Source: a virus
DNA: 64,000 bases
Reading direction: 5' to 3' (one strand)
IMG/VR virus record: IMGVR_UViG_3300028393_000019
Span: 124,001 to 188,000 of that record
The notes under the pieces are model-generated. The model made no database searches. It was not told the origin of the DNA and worked only from the letters and a program-made list of their open reading frames with translations. Both the position numbers and the translations under genes were made by a program. This document shows positions 48,421 to 59,190 of this stretch, piece by piece (within the stretch, counting starts at the first letter, position 1; each line of letters opens with the position of its first letter).

Positions 48421-48488
48421 CACAAGGTCGCGTAAAATCAGTCAAAGCTAGAGCCAAACGTGCAACTCGTAAAGCACGTAACAAGTAA
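48417..48488 (+). CDS. Arg/Lys-rich micro-protein (23 aa)
   Basis: MTQGRVKSVKARAKRATRKA plus RNK; protamine-like. Coupled to the preceding micro-gene and directly upstream of tmRNA. Translation is supported only by the ATGA overlap. Confidence 0.4.
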   Translation: MTQGRVKSVKARAKRATRKARNK

Positions 48489-48496
48489 TAGCAAAA

Positions 48497-48840
48497 GAAT
48501 TGTTGTACAAGCCTTAAAGTAAGGCATTCTGGACGCGGGTTCGACTCCCGCCAGGTCCACCATAAGCATATTAGGTCGTTGAGTTAAAAAGTCGCATGTG
48601 ATGCGCTCAGACTAAAATAGTATGCTTTTGATGGGCCTGCCATGGTTTCGACAGGGTGAGATAGGATAAAGGTCAACACGTGGGGTCACGTAAAATACAA
48701 ATAAAGTAAATGCAAAAGCAAATACATTCGAGTATTTCCAAGTTCCTGTAACATTAGCTACTGCTAATGATGCAGAATTTGCAATCGCAGCCTAAGAAAC
48801 TGCACTCGCGAGGTAGGACTTACCTTGTCATCAAAACAAC
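48497..48840 (+). ncRNA. ssrA: tmRNA, circularly permuted two-piece type
   Basis: The acceptor piece comes first: T-arm GCGGGTTCGACTCCCGC and a 3' end CAGGTCC-A-CCA ending at 48562. After a spacer of about 70 bases the coding piece starts at 48633 with GGGCCTG, which pairs with CAGGTCC, followed by the conserved CCATGGTTTCGACAGGG. The tag reading frame at 48757-48795 gives ATANDAEFAIAA and a TAA stop; the -AIAA end is a ClpXP-type degron. Piece order is that of alphaproteobacterial tmRNA. It frees stalled ribosomes and tags the products. Outer ends are approximate. Confidence 0.9.
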
Positions 48841-48846
48841 CAAAAA

Positions 48847-48868
48847 GGCACTTTCGAGTGCCTTTTTT
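48847..48868 (+). terminator. Rho-independent terminator after tmRNA
   Basis: GGCACT-TTCG-AGTGCC then six T. Confidence 0.88.
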
Positions 48869-48869
48869 A

Positions 48870-50320: not shown

Positions 50321-50409
50321 GGAAGTGTGCGCTGAATTGGTTGAAGGCAACGGACTGTAAATCCGCCACATAAGAAACATTGTTGGTTCGAATCCAACCA
50401 CTTCCACCA
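50321..50409 (+). tRNA. tRNA-Tyr (GTA)
   Basis: Class II with long variable arm; acceptor GGAAGTG/CACTTCC, anticodon GTA, CCA encoded. Confidence 0.93.
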
Positions 50410-50414
50410 AATTT

Positions 50415-50489
50415 GGTCCTGTCATATAGTGGTTATTATACCGGCCTGTCTAGTCGGATATCGGGGTTCGATTCCCCGCAGGATCGCCA
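50415..50489 (+). tRNA. tRNA-Asp (GTC)
   Basis: Acceptor GGTCCTG/CAGGATC, anticodon GTC, T-arm GGGGTTCGATTCCCC, CCA encoded. Confidence 0.93.
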
Positions 50490-50497
50490 AGTATATT

Positions 50498-50574
50498 CGG
50501 AGTGTAGCGCAGTCTGGTAGCGCACCTGGTTTGGGACCAGGGGGTCCAAGGTTCGAATCCTTGTACTCCGACCA
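50498..50574 (+). tRNA. tRNA-Pro (TGG)
   Basis: Acceptor CGGAGTG/TACTCCG, anticodon TGG, CCA encoded. Confidence 0.93.
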
Positions 50575-50581
50575 ATTTTAT

Positions 50582-50656
50582 GCACGGTTCGTCTATCGGT
50601 TAGGACACTGGCCTTTCACGTCAGTAAGACGGGTTCGATTCCCGTACCGTGTACCA
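50582..50656 (+). tRNA. tRNA-Glu (TTC)
   Basis: Acceptor GCACGGT/ACCGTGT, anticodon TTC, CCA encoded. Confidence 0.92.
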
Positions 50657-50850
50657 AGAACGTTCCGCTTTGTTAGCGGATACTGTGACCCGCAGGATGG
50701 GAAGTGAGGTGACTCTCAAGGGTGGTTCTAGTCTTACCGAACTAGCGTTAGCAACACGATAGCGGTCCCTGTCGGGAAGCGGGTGGAGGGCATGCGTGAT
50801 GGACCTAGTCCTGATGTGCTATAATTACCGCCGAGGGATGTCAGAGCTTT
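50657..50850 (+). ncRNA. Gene-free structured stretch between tRNAs
   Basis: 194 bases without an open frame. Hairpins TCCGCT/AGCGGA near 50666, CTAGT/ACTAG near 50730, TCCC/GGGA near 50766, and a long-range ACCCGC/GCGGGT pair spanning about 100 bases. No known RNA recognised. Confidence 0.4.
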
Positions 50851-50925
50851 TCCTCTTGTAGTTAAATGGTATAACAGTCGGCTGATAACCGGCCATTACA
50901 AGTTCGATTCTTGTCGAGAGGACCA
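50851..50925 (+). tRNA. tRNA-Ile (GAT)
   Basis: Acceptor TCCTCTT/GAGAGGA, anticodon stem GTCGG..CCGGC with GAT, CCA encoded. Confidence 0.88.
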
Positions 50926-50953
50926 ATTTTTAACAAAGAACAAAGGAAATGTT

Positions 50954-51331
50954 ATGTCATATAGTGACTGGAATAACTCTGCTAAAATAGCAGACATGGT
51001 AGGTAAAACTTTTACAAGTGTAAAAGCAGATGGCAACGAGTTGGTGTTTGAAAACAGCGTGGATCGTTATGTGTTCTTTCATGCACAAGATTGTTGCGAA
51101 CATGTGCGCATTGAAGACATCGCGGGCGACTTGAGCGACCTAGAAGGTGAACCTTTAGTAATAGCAGACGAAGTTGAAGGTGAAAGCCCAGCTGACTTTG
51201 AAGCATACGAAAGTTACACTTGGACATTTTACAAGTTCGCTACTCGCAAGGGCTATGTGGACGTGAGATGGCTAGGAGAAAGCAACGGGTACTACAGCGA
51301 AAGCGTAAACCTAGGATACGAAACAGTTTAA
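50954..51331 (+). CDS. Phage protein of a small conserved family (DUF7448-like)
   Basis: 125 residues. VGKTFTSVKADGNELVFEN, YVFFHAQDCCEHVRIEDI and TWTFYKFATRKGYVDVRWLGESNGYYSE form a pattern I know from many phage proteins of unknown role. The paired Cys and acids could hold a metal. It sits within the tRNA cluster with an AAAGGA site. Confidence 0.65.
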   Translation: MSYSDWNNSAKIADMVGKTFTSVKADGNELVFENSVDRYVFFHAQDCCEHVRIEDIAGDLSDLEGEPLVIADEVEGESPADFEAYESYTWTFYKFATRKGYVDVRWLGESNGYYSESVNLGYETV

Positions 51332-51381
51332 TTTTATAAAAGGAGATCTGTCATGACCAGTGACAAGAGTGATAAGATGAT

Positions 51382-51456
51382 GGGGGTATAACTTAACGGC
51401 TAAAGTAGCGGGCTTTTAACCCGTAAATCAGAGTTCGATTCTCTGTGCCCCTACCA
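51382..51456 (+). tRNA. tRNA-Lys (TTT)
   Basis: Anticodon stem GCGGG..CCCGT with TTT, T-arm CAGAGTTCGATTCTCTG, CCA encoded; acceptor begins with a G-T pair. Confidence 0.9.
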
Positions 51457-51467
51457 TATAAAAACAT

Positions 51468-51540
51468 ACTGGATCTTCTAGTGGACTAAGACGCTGGCAA
51501 ATAGGTCGGTGAACGTGGTGTTCAAATCCCACTCTAGTGT
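51468..51540 (+). tRNA. Degenerate tRNA-like element
   Basis: Acceptor ACTGGA/TCTAGT, D-arm TCTT..AAGA and a T-arm GTGG..TTCAAAT..CCAC are present, but the anticodon arm (CGCTG..CGGTG) would have a 10-base loop and no CCA is encoded. Either a decayed tRNA or an unusual tRNA-like RNA. Confidence 0.45.
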
Positions 51541-51571
51541 GTTTCTATATGGTATTACTTGTAGATAAATC

Positions 51572-51602
51572 GAGATTGTTTTTTAATCTCTTTAATCTTT
51601 TT
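51572..51602 (+). terminator. Possible terminator
   Basis: GAGATT/AATCTC around a T-rich loop, then TTTAATCTTTTT. Confidence 0.45.
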
Positions 51603-51631
51603 CCTATACTTGAAACGGATGTATAAAGATT

Positions 51632-52435
51632 TTAAAAATGCAAACATTTAATCTTCTCAGCTAGATCTTTGGCTATTAGATCGTGTCCGGATTGCGTAAA
51701 ATGCCATTGGGGCAAGTAGTCAGCATTTGTTATTTCTTCCAAAGATTTAGCAGTTAGTTTAAAGTCATAAAACTCTTTTAACAACTGCTGTTGGATATCA
51801 TTTAACAAGATTGGATCTTTTTCATTCACTATTAGATCGACCTCTTGCCCTTTTAGGTGCGGTTCTTCCAAAGGTTGATTTAACTTAGTAGGCGAGATAC
51901 GTAACAGATAACAGGGTATATTTTTAGAACGAAGTAGTCTTACAGCATATAGCACAGACACATAGTCTTCAACCATCGTAAGCGATTCGTTAAAAAATTC
52001 AAGAAAGAATTCTTGCATGATATTGTTTTGTCTACTATTTAAAAAATGAGTCGGCCAGTTTGGTTGTAGAACTGCACTGTTTACTAGGTTATTTGAATAA
52101 TTCACTAGTAGTCGATTATGAGTAGTCATTTGAATCACTGCTACAGTATCATCGTAGTGGTTTTCAGGAAATTTTAAAATAGCTCGCATAGCTATTTCTT
52201 TATTGGAAATACCTCGTAGGGCAATATTTTCAATCTCTGCATTGAGTAGATTGCCTACCAATGATGGGTAACAATATTGTTTATTATATTCGTTTATTTG
52301 TTCATCGGATGCAGACCTAGTAGCTTTACCAGCTTGAAACACATTCATAGCGGTGTATTGGGGGACGAATTTTTCTTCCCATAGCTCTGTACCAGCGGTA
52401 ATACTGCATCCTGCGAAAACGATTTTTTTAATCAT
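51632..52435 (-). CDS. SGNH/GDSL-like hydrolase family protein
   Basis: 267 residues. FAGCSITAG near the start is a block I variant (Ser in G-x-S), NIALRGISNKEI supplies the block II Gly, VIQMTTHNRL lies where block III has its Asn, and PQWHFTQSGHDLIA near the end gives a His as in block V. The family removes acyl or acetyl groups from lipids and glycans. Phage versions are often called GDSL-like without known substrate. A reverse ATAAATA box sits 7 bases before the ATG. Confidence 0.65.
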   Translation of the reverse strand: MIKKIVFAGCSITAGTELWEEKFVPQYTAMNVFQAGKATRSASDEQINEYNKQYCYPSLVGNLLNAEIENIALRGISNKEIAMRAILKFPENHYDDTVAVIQMTTHNRLLVNYSNNLVNSAVLQPNWPTHFLNSRQNNIMQEFFLEFFNESLTMVEDYVSVLYAVRLLRSKNIPCYLLRISPTKLNQPLEEPHLKGQEVDLIVNEKDPILLNDIQQQLLKEFYDFKLTAKSLEEITNADYLPQWHFTQSGHDLIAKDLAEKIKCLHF

Positions 52436-52442
52436 AGTAAAA

Positions 52443-52449
52443 TATTTAT
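52443..52449 (-). promoter_or_regulatory. ATAAATA late-type box 7 bases before reverse ATG 52435
   Basis: Reverse strand AATAAATA-TTTTACT-ATG. Confidence 0.45.
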
Positions 52450-52462
52450 TATAATTTTTTAC

Positions 52463-52538
52463 AGTAGAGTAGCATAGCGGCTAATGCACCACCTTCATAC
52501 GGTGTTTATCGTGGGTTCGAGTCCCACCTCTACTACCA
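52463..52538 (+). tRNA. tRNA-Met or Ile2 (CAT)
   Basis: Acceptor AGTAGAG/CTCTACT, D-stem GCAT/ATGC, loop TTCATAC with CAT, CCA encoded. CAT could be elongator Met or lysidine-modified Ile. Confidence 0.85.
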
Positions 52539-52542
52539 AATT

Positions 52543-52618
52543 GGAAGTTTAGCTCAGCTGGTAGAGCGTCTGCCTTACACGCAGAATGTCGGCGGTTCGA
52601 TCCCGTCAACTTCCACCA
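52543..52618 (+). tRNA. tRNA-Val (TAC)
   Basis: Acceptor GGAAGTT/AACTTCC, anticodon TAC, CCA encoded. Confidence 0.93.
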
Positions 52619-52624
52619 AACTGT

Positions 52625-52698
52625 TGGGGGTTAGTTAAATGGTATAACCGCGGATTTTGATTCCGCTATTAAAGGTTCGATTCCTTTACCCTCTGCCA
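52625..52698 (+). tRNA. tRNA-Gln (TTG)
   Basis: Anticodon stem GCGGA..TCCGC with TTG; acceptor TGGGGGT/ACCCTCT has a weak first pair, usual for Gln; CCA encoded. Confidence 0.88.
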
Positions 52699-52704
52699 AT
52701 CAAT

Positions 52705-52780
52705 GGTGTCTTTAGTGTAGTGGCCTGCACCCTGCTCTGTGAAAGCGGTAGTACCGGATCGATACCGGTAAGGCACCCCA
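52705..52780 (+). tRNA. tRNA-His (GTG)
   Basis: Extra G(-1) opposite C73, as His requires; anticodon GTG; CCA encoded. Confidence 0.92.
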
Positions 52781-52785
52781 AACAT

Positions 52786-52861
52786 GCTACTTTAGCTGAT
52801 GTGGTCATAGCGGCGGTCTGAAGAACCGTTGAACCAGGTTCGATTCCTGGAGGTAGCACCA
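52786..52861 (+). tRNA. tRNA-Phe (GAA)
   Basis: Acceptor GCTACTT/AGGTAGC, anticodon stem GCGGT..ACCGT with GAA, CCA encoded. Confidence 0.9.
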
Positions 52862-53375
52862 AGTTTTGTAAGTGTTAGCAAGAGAAAGTCACGCTGTCTA
52901 GGTTTCTTCGAAGGACCGAAACAGTAGAAGGTGATGGGTTCGACACCCACTAGGTCCATTGAGGCGACTAAACTGGACAAGTATTCCAAGTAACTTATCC
53001 TGACCCTGCCGGCTCAATTACAAGGGAAAATGGTTGCGATGAGAGGGACGCAACAACTTACAAATTCAACAGACCCCCGCTTTGTCAGGTTGTGCGGTAA
53101 ACAATCTGACACTTACTAAGTAATTGTATTAGTAAAAGATTTAAGGTGTGATAGTGTTTCGCAAGAACTTTGAGGATGCCGGAAGCGTTCAAAGAGGATA
53201 GTTATAGACTATAACACTGATTGGCAGATAGAGTTGGGTATTGTTTTCAGCATTGACCCAACAGTCGATCACGCATTCCATGTTAGGCGAGACCAAAAGA
53301 GCAGATCTGAAAAGTCTGGGTCGCCACTGCTAACGCAAAACCAAAACTCTGTGAATCTTTTACTAATATCTTTAT
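52862..53375 (+). ncRNA. Structured gene-free region with tandem perfect hairpins
   Basis: 514 bases without a credible gene. From 53033 to 53325 there are seven successive perfect helices: GTTGCG/CGCAAC, TGTCAG+TTGT/ACAA+CTGACA, TTACTAA/TTAGTAA, CTTTGA/TCAAAG, GTTATAG/CTATAAC, GTTGGGT/ACCCAAC, GGCGA/TCGCC. A T-arm-like GGGTTCGACACCC lies at about 52937 without a full tRNA around it. Looks like a large folded RNA in the tRNA operon; not a family I can name. Confidence 0.6.
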
Positions 53376-53451
53376 GCGGGCGTAGCTCAGTTGGTAGAGC
53401 ATTACCTTGCCAAGGTAAATGTCGAGAGTTCGAACCTCTTCGCCCGCTCCA
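53376..53451 (+). tRNA. tRNA-Gly (GCC)
   Basis: Acceptor GCGGGCG/CGCCCGC, anticodon GCC, CCA encoded. Confidence 0.94.
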
Positions 53452-53515
53452 AATTATGGCTCCTAGACTTGTTCACATAGTGTCCCCTGGGAGTTTTTCT
53501 TTTATGCCCGGGTGG

Positions 53516-53595
53516 CGAAATTGGTAGACGCACTTCTCTCAAAAGGAAGAAGGAAAAACACCTAGTTGTGAGTTCGAATCTCATCCCGGGCACCA
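53516..53595 (+). tRNA. tRNA-Leu (CAA)
   Basis: Acceptor GCCCGGG/CCCGGGC, anticodon stem CTTCT..GGAAG with CAA, short class II variable arm, CCA encoded. Confidence 0.9.
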
Positions 53596-53597
53596 AT

Positions 53598-53689
53598 GCC
53601 AGCGAGACTTGACAGTCAGAGAGGTTTTATAAACCTTTTAGCGCCAGATTAGCGTTCTTGAGAGGGTTTGATTCCCTCCGCTGGTACCA
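53598..53689 (+). tRNA. Atypical class II tRNA with TAT anticodon
   Basis: Acceptor GCCAGCG/CGCTGGT, anticodon arm GAGGT..ACCTT with TAT, long variable arm (AGCGC/GCGTT), T-loop TTTGATT, CCA encoded. The D-loop lacks the usual GG. UAU would read AUA (Ile), but Ile tRNAs never have a long variable arm, so identity is open. Confidence 0.6.
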
Positions 53690-53690
53690 C

Positions 53691-53764
53691 GCTCTTATAA
53701 TTTAATGGTAGAATGCCTCCTTGGTATGGAGGCAATGATGGTTCGATTCCCTCTAAGAGCACCA
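53691..53764 (+). tRNA. tRNA-Thr (GGT)
   Basis: Acceptor GCTCTTA/TAAGAGC, anticodon stem CCTCC..GGAGG with GGT, CCA encoded. Confidence 0.92.
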
Positions 53765-53769
53765 AACAC

Positions 53770-53844
53770 CTGGCTATAGTACAATGGATAGTACAATGAG
53801 CTTCTACCTCATGAATGTGGGTTCGATTCCTGCTAGCCGGACCA
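53770..53844 (+). tRNA. tRNA-Arg (TCT)
   Basis: Acceptor CTGGCTA/TAGCCGG, anticodon stem ATGAG..CTCAT with TCT, CCA encoded. Confidence 0.9.
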
Positions 53845-53852
53845 ATCAATAT

Positions 53853-53927
53853 CGGCCATTGGTGAAATGGATATCATCTCTGTCTTCGAAACAGAGGGTG
53901 TGGGTTCGATTCCTGCATGGCCGGCCA
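53853..53927 (+). tRNA. tRNA-Arg (TCG)
   Basis: Acceptor CGGCCAT/ATGGCCG, anticodon stem TCTGT..ACAGA with TCG, CCA encoded. Confidence 0.9.
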
Positions 53928-53956
53928 CGATAAGTCAAATATATTTCACAAAGATG

Positions 53957-53985
53957 TTGACACACAGCATCAGATGTTGTATAAT
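53957..53985 (+). promoter_or_regulatory. Consensus promoter TTGACA-17-TATAAT inside tRNA cluster
   Basis: Both hexamers exact; reads into tRNA-Leu (TAG) and later tRNAs. Confidence 0.87.
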
Positions 53986-54038
53986 AGTTGTATACTAGGC
54001 AACTGGTACAATAGTTCTTTAAAAAATTAAAAGCAAAT

Positions 54039-54121
54039 GCCCCGATGGTGGAATTGGTAGACACGCTGGTCTTAGAAGCCAGTGCGCAAGCGTCCGAGTT
54101 CGAGTCTCGGTTGGGGCACCA
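54039..54121 (+). tRNA. tRNA-Leu (TAG)
   Basis: Acceptor GCCCCGA/TTGGGGC, anticodon TAG, class II variable arm, CCA encoded. Confidence 0.92.
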
Positions 54122-54311
54122 TATAAATGCTTTCTGAGTAGCTACAGTGGAACACCGAAATACCGGTCAATGTCGACCATGTACCGGGACCGGCCATGAA
54201 GAGTGGGGCTACCGTGGATTCAAGCGCCACAGAGAGCACCTATATGATCGAGTCTTGGACACGCAGACTTTAAAACGAGGTGGAAGTAGGTGGAAGCCCT
54301 ACACCTAATAT
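54122..54311 (+). ncRNA. Gene-free structured stretch between tRNAs
   Basis: 190 bases, no open frame. Helices GTAGC/GCTAC enclosing CCGGTC/GACCGG, then GTGG/CCAC, then AGGT..GTAGG/CCTAC..ACCT near 54274-54309. No known RNA recognised. Confidence 0.4.
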
Positions 54312-54385
54312 CGCGGGATAGAGTAACGGTAATTCAGAAGTCTCATAAGCTTCAGATCTTGGTTCGATTCCAGGTCCCGCTACCA
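54312..54385 (+). tRNA. tRNA-Met (CAT), position 1-72 unpaired
   Basis: CGCGGGA/TCCCGCT leaves C1 opposite T72, like an initiator tRNA, but the anticodon stem GAAGT..GCTTC lacks the initiator GGG/CCC. CCA encoded. Confidence 0.85.
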
Positions 54386-54391
54386 AATAGA

Positions 54392-54481
54392 GGAAATGTG
54401 GCAGAGTCCGGTTTATTGCAACAGTCTTGAAAACTGTCGAGTCGAAAGGCTCCGTGAGTTCGAATCTCACCGTTTCCGCCA
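54392..54481 (+). tRNA. tRNA-Ser (TGA)
   Basis: Acceptor GGAAATG/CGTTTCC, anticodon TGA, long variable arm, discriminator G, CCA encoded. Confidence 0.92.
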
Positions 54482-54487
54482 AGTTGA

Positions 54488-54561
54488 GTCTCATTAGTAT
54501 AATGGCAGTATAGCGGTCTCCAAAACCGTTGGTCGGGGTTCGAGTCCCTGGTGGGACGCCA
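54488..54561 (+). tRNA. tRNA-Trp (CCA)
   Basis: Acceptor GTCTCAT/GTGGGAC, anticodon stem GCGGT..ACCGT with CCA, discriminator G, CCA end encoded. Confidence 0.9.
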
Positions 54562-54571
54562 AATGTCAATT

Positions 54572-54655
54572 GCGAGAGTGGAGAAATGGTATACTCAAGA
54601 GACTTAAAATCTCTCGTCGAAAGGCATGCGGGTTCGAGTCCCGCTTCTCGCACCA
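54572..54655 (+). tRNA. tRNA-Leu (TAA)
   Basis: Acceptor GCGAGAG/TTCTCGC, anticodon TAA, class II variable arm, CCA encoded. Confidence 0.92.
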
Positions 54656-54674
54656 TTCATAAAGGAGATGTAGT

Positions 54675-54818
54675 ATGTCAAAAAGAGAAGATGTTCTAAA
54701 CAAGGCATACGGCAACGTGCCTCGTGAAATTGGATTTAGCATAGTATGGGATTTCCTGCCAACTTGGCGCGGTGTGCGATACTACTGGCATAAATTAATA
54801 CGTAAGATAACAAGATAA
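54675..54818 (+). CDS. Small protein inside tRNA cluster (47 aa)
   Basis: AAAGGAG upstream of ATG 54675. MSKREDVLNKAYGNVPRE, then an amphipathic FSIVWDFLPTWRGVRYYWHK segment and a basic end. May be membrane-attached. Unknown. Confidence 0.55.
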   Translation: MSKREDVLNKAYGNVPREIGFSIVWDFLPTWRGVRYYWHKLIRKITR

Positions 54819-54824
54819 GCAAAA

Positions 54825-54912
54825 GGATAGTTGGCCGAGTGGTTAAGGCAACGGTTTGCTAAACCGTCGTTCCGAAAGGGGCGCATAGGTTCGAATCCTA
54901 TACTATCCGCCA
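54825..54912 (+). tRNA. tRNA-Ser (GCT)
   Basis: Acceptor GGATAGT/ACTATCC, anticodon GCT, long variable arm, CCA encoded. Confidence 0.92.
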
Positions 54913-54959
54913 GTACATAGGAGATATACTCTCCGCCATTTTTTAAAAAGAGAAAAACT

Positions 54960-55181
54960 ATGATGAAACCAGGCAAGACGTTCAATTTGAACAAACAAAC
55001 CAAACGCTTTATGGCCACGTTTGTGAACGCAGAAGATCGTAATCATTTCAAACGCATGATGATCGATGCACAACTGTGCAGTGAAGTTGTTATCAAGAGT
55101 GCACCGCGTGACAAGAATGCACCGCGTGGTACTGCCAACTATCAAACTAACGATACAGGTACAGCAAGTACCGCAGTATAA
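54960..55181 (+). CDS. Small basic protein (73 aa)
   Basis: Starts MMKPGKTFNLNKQTKRFMAT; basic N-terminal half with FKRMMIDAQLCSE, disordered Thr/Asn-rich tail. It lies between tRNA-Ser and tRNA-Asn. No family recognised. Confidence 0.5.
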   Translation: MMKPGKTFNLNKQTKRFMATFVNAEDRNHFKRMMIDAQLCSEVVIKSAPRDKNAPRGTANYQTNDTGTASTAV

Positions 55182-55190
55182 AAGCATTAT

Positions 55191-55266
55191 TCCGCAGTAG
55201 CTCAGTCGGTAGAGTAGATGACTGTTAATCATTTGGTCGGTGGTTCGAGCCCACCCTGTGGAGCCA
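55191..55266 (+). tRNA. tRNA-Asn (GTT)
   Basis: Acceptor TCCGCAG/CTGTGGA, anticodon stem GATGA..TCATT with GTT, CCA encoded. Confidence 0.92.
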
Positions 55267-55271
55267 GGATT

Positions 55272-55347
55272 GGGGGATTAGCTCATTTGGGAGAGCACCT
55301 GCTTTGCAAGCAGGGGGTGGTCGGTTCGATCCCGACATCCTCCACCA
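55272..55347 (+). tRNA. tRNA-Ala (TGC)
   Basis: Acceptor GGGGGAT/ATCCTCC, anticodon stem CCTGC..GCAGG with TGC, CCA encoded. Confidence 0.94.
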
Positions 55348-55399
55348 AGATCACCATTACACACGGTGTACAATAGGATAAGTAGTGTGTAACAAATTT

Positions 55400-55475
55400 G
55401 CCGGTTTAGCTCATTTGGTAGAGCGCCGCTCTTGTAAGGCGGATGTGGTCAGTTCGATTCCGACAACCGGCACCA
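55400..55475 (+). tRNA. tRNA-Thr (TGT)
   Basis: Acceptor GCCGGTT/AACCGGC, anticodon stem CCGCT..GGCGG with TGT, CCA encoded. Confidence 0.93.
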
Positions 55476-55865
55476 AGTTTAAACATATTGAAATCTGTAA
55501 AAAGATCAGGTTTGGTATCCCAGTCACTATGATAGGCATAGCCCATATACTCAATACACCACAATATGTTTATTCGTTTCCCGGGACTACTGGCCGTAAC
55601 CCAAGTAGCGTAATTACAGTAACGATAACTGTACGGTGCATTGGATCTACCGCAAGGCCCGCTATATGGGCGACTTGAGAAATCACAAAGGCAGAGCACT
55701 AACTGTCTATATGGAAACATGCGGTACGGACACCAAGCCTAGTCTAGGGCATTCGGGAGAGTGTAACTAGACACTTTAATCAAACACACTTAGCCTAGCT
55801 ATAAGCTAGGTTGCAAGGACCACACACCATCTTAGAAAAAAGTGTTAAGTGTGTTTGATTAAAGT
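55476..55865 (+). ncRNA. Structured gene-free region ending in a 21-bp hairpin
   Basis: 390 bases without a credible gene. Long-range perfect helices AACATATTG/CAATATGTT (55482/55562), GCCCATATA/TATATGGGC (55541/55663), TACAGT/ACTGTA near 55616, then a perfect 21-bp inverted repeat (55772-55792 with 55846-55866) enclosing a 7-bp hairpin CCTAGCT/AGCTAGG (55794-55810). The 21-bp stem touches the first base of tRNA-Gly. A folded ncRNA or a small mobile-element-like hairpin. Confidence 0.6.
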
Positions 55866-55939
55866 GCGGGATTAGTTTAATGGTAAAACAGCAGATTTCC
55901 AATCTTCGGTCAAGAGTTCGATTCTCTTATCCCGCTCCA
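55866..55939 (+). tRNA. tRNA-Gly (TCC)
   Basis: Acceptor GCGGGAT/ATCCCGC, anticodon TCC, CCA encoded. Confidence 0.88.
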
Positions 55940-55959
55940 ATTTTTAAAAAGGAAAACAA

Positions 55960-56220
55960 ATGAAAGCAAGTCATATTTTGGTAGCCACACGTGAACAAGC
56001 TGATGCAATCTTGGCTGAAGCAACTGCATTGAATTTTGGATCACTTGCACAGCAGTACAGCTCATGCCCCAGTAAAGCACGTGGTGGCGACTTGGGCGAT
56101 TTCGGCCCAGGTCAAATGGTCAAGCCGTTTGAAGATGCTACTGTGGCAACAGCAGTTGGTGCTATTAGCCAGCCAGTGCAAACACAATTTGGTTTTCACT
56201 TGATCCATCGCACTGGATGA
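55960..56220 (+). CDS. Parvulin-type peptidyl-prolyl isomerase
   Basis: 86 residues, a bare parvulin domain: KASHILVATREQADAIL, LAQQYSSCPSKARGGDLGDFGPGQMVKPFE and TQFGFHLIHR. Catalytic His (SHI, FHLI), Cys and Met/Phe positions are present. Cytoplasmic (no signal). Could speed folding of proline-rich virion proteins. Overlaps the next gene by 4 bases. Confidence 0.93.
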   Translation: MKASHILVATREQADAILAEATALNFGSLAQQYSSCPSKARGGDLGDFGPGQMVKPFEDATVATAVGAISQPVQTQFGFHLIHRTG

Positions 56221-56777
56221 TAATAGATTCAAACGATCTTTGCCGCAAGTATGATTACAGTAGTTTGATCTCAGCTACCGAAAACGACACAGCCATAGGC
56301 ATTATCAAAAGTATAATCGAAAGCGGCAACTACTTTAAAAACTCGCCTCCGTTTCAAACACAGGAAAATTTGTTTGGCAGATCCGAGGCAGTTTGGTTGA
56401 AATATCGTATGACATTTTTGACCAGTGTGTTTTTATATTTGGGACACGAAGCCAGAGTCAGCAACATGATGGCTTGGAGTTTTATGACCAATTTGAGCAC
56501 AGTAGAAGATCGTGACAAATATTGGCATCATCATGACAAACATTCGGGCAAAAGCCTAAGCGGAATCATGTACTTGCACATCCCCGACGATGTGAAGGAT
56601 TTTGACACATGTGGCACCGAACTGGCACCCAATGGGCCAGAGTCTCCTGGCAAATTTTTTGTACGACCCAGTTACTGCTCGTGGATTATCTATCCCAGCA
56701 ACATTTGGCATAGACCAGGTATTGTGCAAAGTGACAAATATCGATTTATTTTAGCCGCAGACGTTGACTACGAGTAA
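56217..56777 (+). CDS. 2-oxoglutarate/Fe(II) oxygenase-like protein
   Basis: 186 residues. YWHHHDKHSGKSLSGIMYLH suggests the H-x-D iron site and IYPSNIWHRPGI...KYRFILAADVD the distal His and the 2OG-binding Arg on the last strand, as in phage 2OG-Fe(II) oxygenases (TIGR02466-like). Substrate unknown; related phage enzymes hydroxylate proteins or nucleotides. ATGA overlap with the parvulin gene suggests a linked protein-modifying role. Confidence 0.68.
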   Translation: MIIDSNDLCRKYDYSSLISATENDTAIGIIKSIIESGNYFKNSPPFQTQENLFGRSEAVWLKYRMTFLTSVFLYLGHEARVSNMMAWSFMTNLSTVEDRDKYWHHHDKHSGKSLSGIMYLHIPDDVKDFDTCGTELAPNGPESPGKFFVRPSYCSWIIYPSNIWHRPGIVQSDKYRFILAADVDYE

Positions 56778-56792
56778 AATAGATGTTATAAT
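56764..56792 (+). promoter_or_regulatory. Sigma70-type promoter TTGACT-17-TATAAT
   Basis: Drives the omega-like gene; overlaps the preceding stop. Confidence 0.7.
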
Positions 56793-56813
56793 AACGTTTT
56801 AACGGAGATATCA

Positions 56814-57047
56814 ATGCGAAATACAACACTTAGCCGTGGTCCAGAAATTGACAGAGAACTGTGCTGTAGCAAAATGGGGACTGGTATGTATGATCTTGTT
56901 CTGGCAGCCACAGCTCGAGCAAGAGAGATCCGTCGTCAGCATAGAAGCAGTGAGTCATATGAGCATATCTATCCAATAGTAACTGCTATACTGGAAATCC
57001 AACAAGGCAAGATTGATCCAAAAGAGTATCTCAAACGAGTACGTTAA
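56814..57047 (+). CDS. rpoZ: RNA polymerase omega-subunit-like protein
   Basis: 77 residues. CCSKMGTGMYDLVLAATARAREIRR matches the omega core (x-N-R/M-Y/F-D/E-LV-x-x-A-x-x-RAR-x-I), followed by YPIVTAILEIQQGKIDP, equivalent to the omega V-x-x-AL-x-EI-x-x-GKI. Omega latches onto the beta-prime C-terminus, so a phage copy could mark or retune host polymerase. The start MRNTTLSRGPEIDRE differs from the bacterial MARVTVED. Own early-type promoter. Confidence 0.7.
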   Translation: MRNTTLSRGPEIDRELCCSKMGTGMYDLVLAATARAREIRRQHRSSESYEHIYPIVTAILEIQQGKIDPKEYLKRVR

Positions 57048-57052
57048 TTCGT

Positions 57053-57130
57053 GCAACGGTGGCAGAGCGGCCCAATGCACCGGATTGCAAATCCGTAAAA
57101 CCGGGGGTTCAAATCCCTCCCGTTGCTCCA
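57053..57130 (+). tRNA. tRNA-Cys (GCA)
   Basis: Acceptor GCAACGG/CCGTTGC, anticodon stem CCGGA..TCCGT with GCA, CCA encoded. Last tRNA of the cluster. Confidence 0.92.
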
Positions 57131-57140
57131 TAAATAACAC

Positions 57141-57169
57141 TTGACATCTATGGTAATAGGTGTTATAAT
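57141..57169 (+). promoter_or_regulatory. Consensus promoter TTGACA-17-TATAAT
   Basis: Both hexamers exact; drives the DksA-like gene and the kinase/phosphatase genes. Confidence 0.87.
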
Positions 57170-57196: not shown

Positions 57197-57439
57197 ATGC
57201 GCGAATACGAAAGCATCCAAGGCGACAATTTAGAGGAAGCGGATCAAGCACAGCTATTGTCTACTGCTCTAAGTGCAGACGCTGTGGCCAAGATCAGAGC
57301 CAGTATCCCTACTGGGCCCAGTTTGAGTCATTGCAACGAATGCGGAGAAGAAATTCCGCTTGCTAGGCAACGAGCATTGCGTGGATGCATGACCTGTATC
57401 GATTGTCAAACACTTAGCGAAAGAAAGAAGTTAGGATAA
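57197..57439 (+). CDS. TraR/DksA-type zinc-finger transcription regulator
   Basis: 80 residues: helical half with ALSADAVAKIR, then HCNECGEEIPLARQRALRGCMTCIDCQ, the four-Cys DksA/TraR finger. Small TraR-like proteins bind the RNA polymerase secondary channel and act like DksA without ppGpp. Own consensus promoter, close to the omega-like gene. TAATG overlap with the next gene. Confidence 0.9.
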   Translation: MREYESIQGDNLEEADQAQLLSTALSADAVAKIRASIPTGPSLSHCNECGEEIPLARQRALRGCMTCIDCQTLSERKKLG

Positions 57440-57606: not shown

Positions 57607-58067
57607 TGCCCAAGTGTTATCAATTAATCGGAGTTCCCTGCGCAGGAAAAAGTACTTGGACTAAGAGCCAGCAATGGATCTTAGGTATGGAGTATGTAAG
57701 TACTGACCATCATGTAGAAGTCTATGCTGAACAGCAAGGTAAGACTTATTCAGAAGTGTTTAAGGATTACATGCCTAGAGCAGTTGAACTAATGGCACAA
57801 GAAGTCGTAGATGCTAGAACAGCAGGACGTGATGTGATTTGGGATCAAACTAGTACTACAGTTGCTAGCCGTGCTAGGAAGTTTAATATGCTTCCTGACT
57901 ATTGGCACATCGCTGTGGTGTTTCCGACTCCTGAAATCGCAGTATTGAAAGAACGTTTGGCTAGCCGTCCAGGCAAAGAAGTTCCTTGGGAAGTTGTACA
58001 AGGAATGATCGATAATTTTGAATACCCTACTAACGAAGAGGGTTTCAAAGAAATTTGGAGGGTATAA
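57606..58067 (+). CDS. P-loop kinase (polynucleotide-kinase-like)
   Basis: 153 residues from ATG 57606. LIGVPCAGKSTWTKS is a Walker A at 5-19; VSTDHHVE gives the T4 Pnk-like acceptor Asp; RDVIWDQTSTTVASRARKF the Walker B/Arg region; a LID-like RLASRPGKE follows. Substrate may be RNA/DNA 5' ends or a small molecule. TAATG overlaps on both sides; the phosphatase follows. Confidence 0.8.
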   Translation: MPKCYQLIGVPCAGKSTWTKSQQWILGMEYVSTDHHVEVYAEQQGKTYSEVFKDYMPRAVELMAQEVVDARTAGRDVIWDQTSTTVASRARKFNMLPDYWHIAVVFPTPEIAVLKERLASRPGKEVPWEVVQGMIDNFEYPTNEEGFKEIWRV

Positions 58068-58534
58068 TGCCTTGGATTGAAAACGTAGCCGCAAGTGATA
58101 TCCCAATTGGATTCCATCACGATGCTGGCCCTAATAGTATGCTGATCAGTATAGTTGATCCTGCAAGCTGGCGACCTGAAGCCAAACACCAATTCAAAGA
58201 GCGCCACAACTTTGAGTTTTTGGATGTGGAAGAAAAGGATTCGGTACTGGAAGAATCAATGAAGTGCAGTCATGAGCAGGCCGCAGAGCTTGTTCGTTTG
58301 CTACAACACGCATTGGACAACCGTATGAATGTAGTGGTCCATTGCTTTGCAGGCATTTGCCGTTCGGGCGCAGTTTGCGAAGTAGGGATTATGATGGGAT
58401 TTGACGACACAGAACGCTTTCGTAGTCCAAATCTTTTGGTTAAGCATCGTATGATGAAGCAGTTGGGTTGGACCTACGATGAAAACGAAAAGCCCAATAT
58501 CGACGACTGGCGTACTTTTAGATCGGTTGACTAA
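58067..58534 (+). CDS. Protein-tyrosine/dual-specificity-type phosphatase
   Basis: 155 residues from ATG 58067. VVVHCFAGICRSGAV carries the H-C-x5-R-S signature with Cys and Arg in place. Upstream FLDVEEKD could supply the general-acid Asp. It would hydrolyse phosphoprotein or nucleotide phosphates through a Cys intermediate. TAATG-coupled to the kinase, so the two may act on the same pathway. Confidence 0.82.
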   Translation: MPWIENVAASDIPIGFHHDAGPNSMLISIVDPASWRPEAKHQFKERHNFEFLDVEEKDSVLEESMKCSHEQAAELVRLLQHALDNRMNVVVHCFAGICRSGAVCEVGIMMGFDDTERFRSPNLLVKHRMMKQLGWTYDENEKPNIDDWRTFRSVD

Positions 58535-58555
58535 TTGGCAAATTGAGTGTATAAT
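58527..58555 (+). promoter_or_regulatory. Sigma70-type promoter TTGACT-17-TATAAT
   Basis: In the end of the phosphatase gene, reads into the phosphoesterase; AAAGGAGG ribosome site follows. Confidence 0.7.
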
Positions 58556-58584
58556 AATATATTAAACAATGAAAGGAGGGCAAG

Positions 58585-59190
58585 ATGCCTAGTGTTTTTC
58601 TAGTAAGTGATACGCACTTTGGACACAAAGGCGTATGCCACTTTACACGTAACGATGGTGTTACAAAACTTCGCCCATGGGACTCGCCCGAGGAAATGGA
58701 CGAAGCAATGGTCAAGGCGTGGAACGAACGGGTAAAGCCCACAGACAAAGTCTACCATTTGGGCGACGTTGTTATCAATCGTAGAGCGTTGGATATCATG
58801 CATAGACTTAACGGCGACAAAGTGCTGATTCGTGGTAATCACGATATCTTTAAAGACACAGACTATCGTGAACACTTTAGAGAACTTAGAGCTTATCACG
58901 TTATGGATGGTATGATCCTTAGCCATATTCCGTTACACTCAGATTCAATGGGTCGTTTTGGTGTTAACATTCACGGTCACACTCACGCAAATCGTGTGAA
59001 AAAAGCTCGTGGGGTTGATGCTAGAACTGGGGAAGTTCTGTACAGCGAAGAGAACGATGTGCGCTACCATTGTGTATGCGTGGAACAAACCCCAGACTTC
59101 GCTCCAATTCTGTTTGAAGATGTCATAAAGAACATCGAAGCAGAAGGCGGGAGTGTAGGATTCCGCAACGGAAACGGTCCTACTATGTAA
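58585..59190 (+). CDS. Calcineurin-like metallophosphoesterase
   Basis: 201 residues. VSDTHFGHKG (D-x-H), YHLGDVVIN (GD), LIRGNHDIF (GNHD), MILSHIPLH and NIHGHTHAN (GHTH) complete the two-metal site. Family members of this size cut cyclic nucleotides or nucleotide and RNA ends. A strong ribosome site (AAAGGAGG) and its own promoter suggest high early expression. Substrate not visible from sequence. Confidence 0.9.
   Translation: MPSVFLVSDTHFGHKGVCHFTRNDGVTKLRPWDSPEEMDEAMVKAWNERVKPTDKVYHLGDVVINRRALDIMHRLNGDKVLIRGNHDIFKDTDYREHFRELRAYHVMDGMILSHIPLHSDSMGRFGVNIHGHTHANRVKKARGVDARTGEVLYSEENDVRYHCVCVEQTPDFAPILFEDVIKNIEAEGGSVGFRNGNGPTM

Follow-up and report, generated by a model that had tools for sequence, protein, structure and literature searches.

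An omega-family protein encoded by a large phage, with an altered segment at the position of ppGpp site 1

The stretch of 64,000 nucleotides analysed here (the window) is part of a 265,680-bp (265.7-kb) virus record and encodes a protein of the RNA polymerase omega family. The presence of this omega-family protein in a phage genome is confirmed. On balance, we favour the explanation that it enters the host RNA polymerase, where it replaces or competes with the host omega, and that it alters ppGpp site 1. The known tactics of phages on the host polymerase are binding, blocking and new sigma factors; a replacement core subunit brought by the phage would be a different strategy. The features of the gene are given below.

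56764..56792, plus strand: sigma70-type promoter TTGACT-17-TATAAT with extended -10 (11/12 consensus bases)
56804..56807, plus strand: Shine-Dalgarno-like GGAG, read from the sequence
56814..57047, plus strand: phage omega (Rpb6/omega family), 77 aa, start codon ATG, assigned by PF01192 score and AF2 model
56832..56852, plus strand: SRGPEID, class-specific N-terminal motif (residues 7-13), defined by the recurrence of SRGxxx[DN]xxxC
56886..57020, plus strand: omega core (residues 25-69) including RARE (35-38), given by the Pfam match range

The omega core that the first-pass annotation had read in this frame was recovered by profile search, which was also the check proposed there. PF01192 (RNA_pol_Rpb6), the Pfam family to which omega belongs, matched residues 25-69 with 35.2 bits against a gathering cut-off of 26 (E 1.3e-8), and no other Pfam family matched at E<=1. 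The NCBIfam rpoZ model TIGR00690 scored 19.5 bits, under its equivalog cut-off of 23.6, and the protein is therefore called omega-like and not RpoZ. Among 19 phage relatives, PF01192 matched all at E<=1, some of them below the cut-off (L013 with 24.7 bits and L005 with 20.4), and TIGR00690 matched 15 at E<=0.01. The profile built from these relatives matched the PDB omega chains of V. cholerae and E. coli at 1.4e-8 to 3.3e-8, and estrogen-receptor chains followed more weakly at 1e-3, which is chance-like. The AlphaFold (AF2) model of the phage omega showed a pLDDT of 88.8. The first 13 Foldseek matches of this model were chains E or K (omega) of RNA polymerase entries, although for a protein of this small size their E-values are weak, and alone they are not significant (best 0.057). 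VIA-align gave F. tularensis omega as the top match with a Z of 7.8 over 66 residues, laying residues 9-77 of the model on 1-70 of omega. The PHROG search with the window protein gave no match at E<=1, and that with its relatives nothing better than E 0.02.

The modest Foldseek value, the VIA-align Z under 8 and the weak matches of the unrelated estrogen-receptor chains are what could be expected if the protein were no omega and its helical match had arisen by chance, or if the viral contig contained host DNA. This is extremely improbable, since two profile methods agree on a large family under purifying selection, and since phage neighbour genes occur in 0/73 bacterial omega loci while the phage loci carry them. 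Two bacterial control loci examined in full (L288 and L289) have the gmk-rpoZ-spoT order; the window omega has phage neighbours instead.

The relatives were collected by IMG/VR searches, from which 94 and 80 loci were used, some contigs twice, giving 123 distinct phage omegas. Two early searches used patterns including the N-terminal motif and were repeated with a core-only alignment lacking it, from whose 232 relatives the best 80 were taken; one MARIT-type protein supplied the patterns behind the further 80 loci. The 123 proteins comprise 63 with SRGxxx[DN]xxxC, 35 starting with M[APS]Rx[TS] and 25 others. The SRG motif is present in 63 of the 65 distinct proteins from the motif-based and core-only searches combined, and it is no query artefact because it was recovered also by the alignment without it. 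The phage omega gene is clearly under purifying selection, the median dN/dS over 339 pairs being 0.25 and the maximum 0.53. A quick unrooted tree of 83 columns split the SRG class together with L064 from the other phage omegas and the bacterial ones (SH-aLRT 99). Exactly one omega per genome was found in all 16 larger phage contigs. The omegas of L271 (a 338-kb contig) and L260 have an intermediate N-terminus, DTDxCV without SRG, and are possibly a link between the two classes.

The SRG-class patterns hit 23 stretches of bacterial genomes, none of which encoded a relative, and a tblastn search of INPHARED with the window protein was negative. The rpoZ of 'Acinetobacter phage MD-2021a', matched by L013, was rejected as a phage omega because the record is a piece of bacterial chromosome (rplS-trmD-rimM-rpsP, gmk-rpoZ-spoT). 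L235 matched nine INPHARED records: two are bacterial with an annotated omega, two are the Acinetobacter contigs, four are unannotated, and the last, MT839270, is an unverified gut fragment of 4.4 kb. The four unannotated records (two Campylobacter phage records and two short fragments) were taken as host DNA, since their match of 54.7% is the same as that of the bacterial records. Bacterial-type rpoZ was noted in the phage-filed INPHARED records CAKLQH020000003.1, CAKLQF020000004.1, MG065691.1 and MG065686.1; the surroundings of rpoZ in the first are those of a bacterial chromosome, and the other three were judged by the match alone.

The N-terminal segment was compared with that of E. coli omega. 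The HMM and structural alignments both gave an offset of 8 between the two proteins, and residues 10-13 of the window protein (PEID) therefore correspond to E. coli omega 2-5. Ala2-Arg3-Val4-Thr5 of E. coli are aligned with Pro-Glu-Ile-Asp behind the SRG extension, and the bacterial-type N-terminus MAR[IV]T, which belongs to ppGpp site 1, is absent. According to the available text of PMC7676912, omega residues 2-5 coordinate the ppGpp phosphates at site 1; polymerase with omega lacking 2-5 has a ppGpp Kd of >100 uM, and in M7, a polymerase with several site-1 mutations that include omega delta2-5, ppGpp binding persists with a Kd of 16 uM. Position 11 in the 63 SRG-class proteins is occupied by E, T, G, S, N, D, A, L, F or Q and by Arg or Lys in none, and position 13 is Asp in 62; the 66 distinct bacterial omegas compared carry Arg and Thr at the aligned positions. 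The ppGpp-contact Arg is kept in 85% of the 60 non-SRG phage omegas, so the loss of site 1 cannot be the general purpose of phage omegas. The SRG lies just three residues upstream and could loop back, restoring the ppGpp contact.

The omega fold is kept in the core, and the N-terminal segment supplying part of ppGpp site 1 is rebuilt. In the proposed mechanism, the phage omega would enter the host polymerase in place of, or competing with, the host omega, and the site-1 binding of ppGpp by the re-fitted polymerase would be poor or different. With site-1 binding altered, phage transcription is proposed to be uncoupled from the host starvation response. We infer in this way the binding to beta', the displacement of host omega, the early timing and the ppGpp effect. 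The omega of E. coli is not essential, and its replacement by a phage omega may therefore have mild effects.

The phage omega resembles bacterial RpoZ in the core motifs R-A-R and A-L/I-x-E-I-x-x-G, the fold and the small single domain. It differs in being phage-borne, under the rpoZ equivalog cut-off and outside the gmk-rpoZ-spoT context, and in carrying SRGxxxDxxxC for MAR[IV]T, Glu38 for Gln, and L60 and Q63 for Arg and Glu. Position 38 and its neighbour read [RK]-E in 121 of the 123 phage omegas, and position 38 is Gln in 69 of 73 bacterial omegas, a set that is mostly gammaproteobacterial and chosen by pattern, so that 'phage-wide' features are contrasts with this set only; the omega of S. 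aureus also has Glu at position 38 in the alignment. The YL at 72-73 near the C-terminus is mostly present in both phage omega groups. The conserved core residues and the many non-SRG phage omegas with a bacterial-like N-terminus would also suit a mere additional supply of omega that stabilises or assembles the host polymerase while a jumbo phage completes its long infection, without any special regulatory role, and omega is known as a folding chaperone of beta' (PMC5811629, in its available text). This explanation is improbable, as it leaves unexplained the rebuilt and highly conserved SRG N-terminus (63/65) and the phage-wide E38.

The omega gene had been credited with its own early-type promoter. 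The promoter itself was found as a sigma70-type motif, and the term 'early-type' is drawn from the sigma70 consensus. As the site fits the unmodified host holoenzyme, by which it would be read, the phage omega is probably made early. A sigma70 site of at least 11/12 lies within 120 bp upstream in 20 of the 59 SRG-class omega loci with enough upstream DNA (kinship ignored), compared with 60 of 618 for the other ORFs on the same strand and 107 of 3000 for random stretches; the count for non-SRG phage omegas was 10/60.

The polymerase genes of the phage were also searched. Beta (PF00562) was above cut-off in 0/10 contigs (the window contig and nine related ones) and in 0/9 contigs with non-SRG omegas, and beta' (PF00623) in 0/10 of the former. 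A polymerase of the phage's own within the contigs searched was rejected, as solely sub-threshold matches of 10.3 and 12.7 bits were obtained. The host polymerase is therefore the only one for the phage omega to join. Replacement of the host omega is the most natural reading of the sequence data, given one omega per genome, a conserved core and no phage beta or beta'. The strong promoter motif of the gene could also serve a decoy or inhibitor, an omega mimic on beta' that blocks host transcription, and small polymerase-binding phage proteins are common. Such a role is very unlikely, because a phage without its own polymerase in the contigs searched needs that of the host and because the complete omega fold is retained.

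The host of the phage was approached through the tmRNA gene of the window.

48450..48869, plus strand: permuted betaproteobacterial-type tmRNA (RF01850 118.5 bits against 84; RF04321 118.9 against 47)

The beta_tmRNA model RF01850 was above cut-off in 9/16 phage genomes and 0/14 control genomes, and the top two of the 73 bacterial omegas retrieved with the phage query belonged to Comamonadaceae MAGs. A betaproteobacterial host is thus likely for the window phage. ARAGORN gave an unusual 27-aa tag for the window tmRNA. As context only, Paride needs host (p)ppGpp signalling for growth on dormant cells (PMC10761892, in the text available), and jumbo phages of such a broad kind therefore meet the stringent response.

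The gp55-type late sigma (phrog_234) was found in 6 of the 10 omega-carrying contigs searched, a set confined to the SRG class. In these six its gene follows omega in the same orientation, at a downstream distance of about 140 to 198 kb. The four contigs without it, among them that of the window, extend about 30 to 85 kb beyond omega on the downstream side, short of any observed omega-gp55 distance; in the window contig both the phrog_234 search and the gp55 profile were negative. The nearest cultured phages by gp55 are the PA5oct/Paride group with 46% identity, which have the gp55-type sigma and presumably the use of host polymerase in common with the omega carriers; they differ in that the four cultured gp55-carrying jumbo genomes searched, Paride, Phosso, Atu_ph07 and SD-1_S14, have no omega. 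As all four lack it, gp55 does not require omega. The idea of omega as an invariable companion of gp55 was dropped, since 0/11 large gp55-bearing partial contigs (from 80 loci kept) carried omega; these contigs are fragments totalling about 1.09 Mb and hence weak evidence against a universal pairing.

A role of the phage omega in gp55-type late transcription is possible. It could be a late-transcription adaptor, that is, a docking surface on the host polymerase for the gp55-type sigma or another phage factor. The occurrence of gp55 in six omega genomes, with the other contigs ending too early, is consistent with it, the Q-to-E change and the conserved YL in both classes could be the shared docking surface, and the GafA of a gene transfer agent, which works via omega binding (PMC9638019, available text), is a precedent. 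The explanation is nevertheless rather doubtful, as omega is missing from the cultured gp55 phages tested, the sigma70-type promoter suggests an early and not a late need, and gp55 was not found in the window contig. In the case of GafA, too, omega is used by a phage-like element to alter which promoters are chosen, but according to the same available text GafA binds the omega of the host, whereas the window phage carries omega itself.

The favoured explanation, a phage omega within the host polymerase, was further considered with the neighbouring genes, which include a possible partner. Omega and this partner stand at the end of an array of 28 tRNA genes (50321-57130), and 89 of 123 representative loci have a tRNA no more than 300 bp from omega, against 43% when positions are drawn at random from these loci.

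57053..57130, plus strand: tRNA-Cys (GCA), between omega and the TraR-like gene
57141..57169, plus strand: perfect sigma70 promoter TTGACA-17-TATAAT of the TraR-like gene (12/12)
57197..57439, plus strand: DksA/TraR-like C4 zinc-finger protein, 80 aa, possible partner (PF01258 39.1 against 24.9; phrog_54)

The DksA-like gene had been placed 150 bases from omega, and its start at 57197 is indeed 149 bp past the omega stop. TIGR02419 gave 58.1 bits for it against a cut-off of 59.7. Its N-terminal motif is ExxDxA, that of TraR being DxxDxA in the available text of PMC9239242. Its Pfam family is above cut-off in 4/10 omega-carrying genomes, and TraR-like relatives were seen near omega in at least 7 of 65 representative loci (three of them with the gene at +293 to +383 bp and four with it at +2.6 to +3.4 kb), L022 being left out of the count as a chance ORF over a tRNA; the number is a lower bound because many locus flanks are short. 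The pairing is real in the window phage and optional elsewhere. The first-pass suggestion that both polymerase sites are targeted at once accordingly fits the window phage, with omega for site 1 and DksA/TraR for site 2, but does not extend to all relatives. In phages carrying one, the TraR-like protein would act at the DksA/site-2 side.

We also propose, tentatively and with less confidence, a wider history. Jumbo phages of the gp55 type that infect Betaproteobacteria and form a widespread lineage may have captured a proteobacterial omega that developed into at least two forms, of which the SRG form rebuilds site 1. The chimeric polymerase would be deaf or retuned to the stringent response, and in some of the phages TraR-like proteins would take care of site 2. 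The relatives in other large phages and the rebuilt tip where ppGpp normally binds suggest that viruses re-fit the host polymerase with a part of their own. Two natural kinds of phage omega, with ppGpp contacts kept or changed, would make the long-debated roles of omega and site 1 directly testable.

Virus-borne members of the Rpb6/omega superfamily are known in the Rpb6 subunits of nucleocytoplasmic large DNA viruses, which encode a whole polymerase; in contrast, no beta or beta' was found alongside the phage omega. The TraR/DksA proteins of plasmids and phages (lambda Orf73 and others; PMC9239242, available text) are likewise small mobile-element proteins that reprogram the host polymerase, but they are an unrelated family and act in the secondary channel (site 2), while omega and beta' form site 1. 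A phage-encoded omega was not reported in the literature searched, mostly titles and beginnings of abstracts, with many subscription papers and non-PMC bioRxiv preprints outside its scope, and the aquatic jumbo-phage paper PMC9723584 gave no passage on omega. A 2025 paper (PMC12619734) states in its available text that a homolog of RNA polymerase genes was not found in any of the aquatic jumbo 'moraphages', which may or may not be the omega-carrying phages described here.

Other genes recur around the phage omega, as counted over 66 neighbour sets.

56217..56777, plus strand: 2OG-Fe(II) oxygenase-like ORF upstream of omega (PF13759 22.6, below the cut-off of 27; phrog_81), in 27/66 sets
58067..58534, plus strand: dual-specificity/tyrosine phosphatase-like ORF (Tc-R-P 29 against 27; DSPc 29.1, below cut-off), in 56/66 sets
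58585..59190, plus strand: metallophosphoesterase (phrog_547, E 3e-48), in 53/66 sets

The PTP-like phosphatase and the metallophosphoesterase (58067-59190) form a conserved cassette near omega. The phage also encodes a stand-alone parvulin-type PPIase of 86 aa at 55960-56220 (PF00639, E 2e-19). A DUF2828/DUF7788 protein of about 470 aa recurs near the phage omega in 23 loci in all (for example L043:8673-10085), and we take it to be reminiscent of TROVE/Ro-type RNA-binding proteins.
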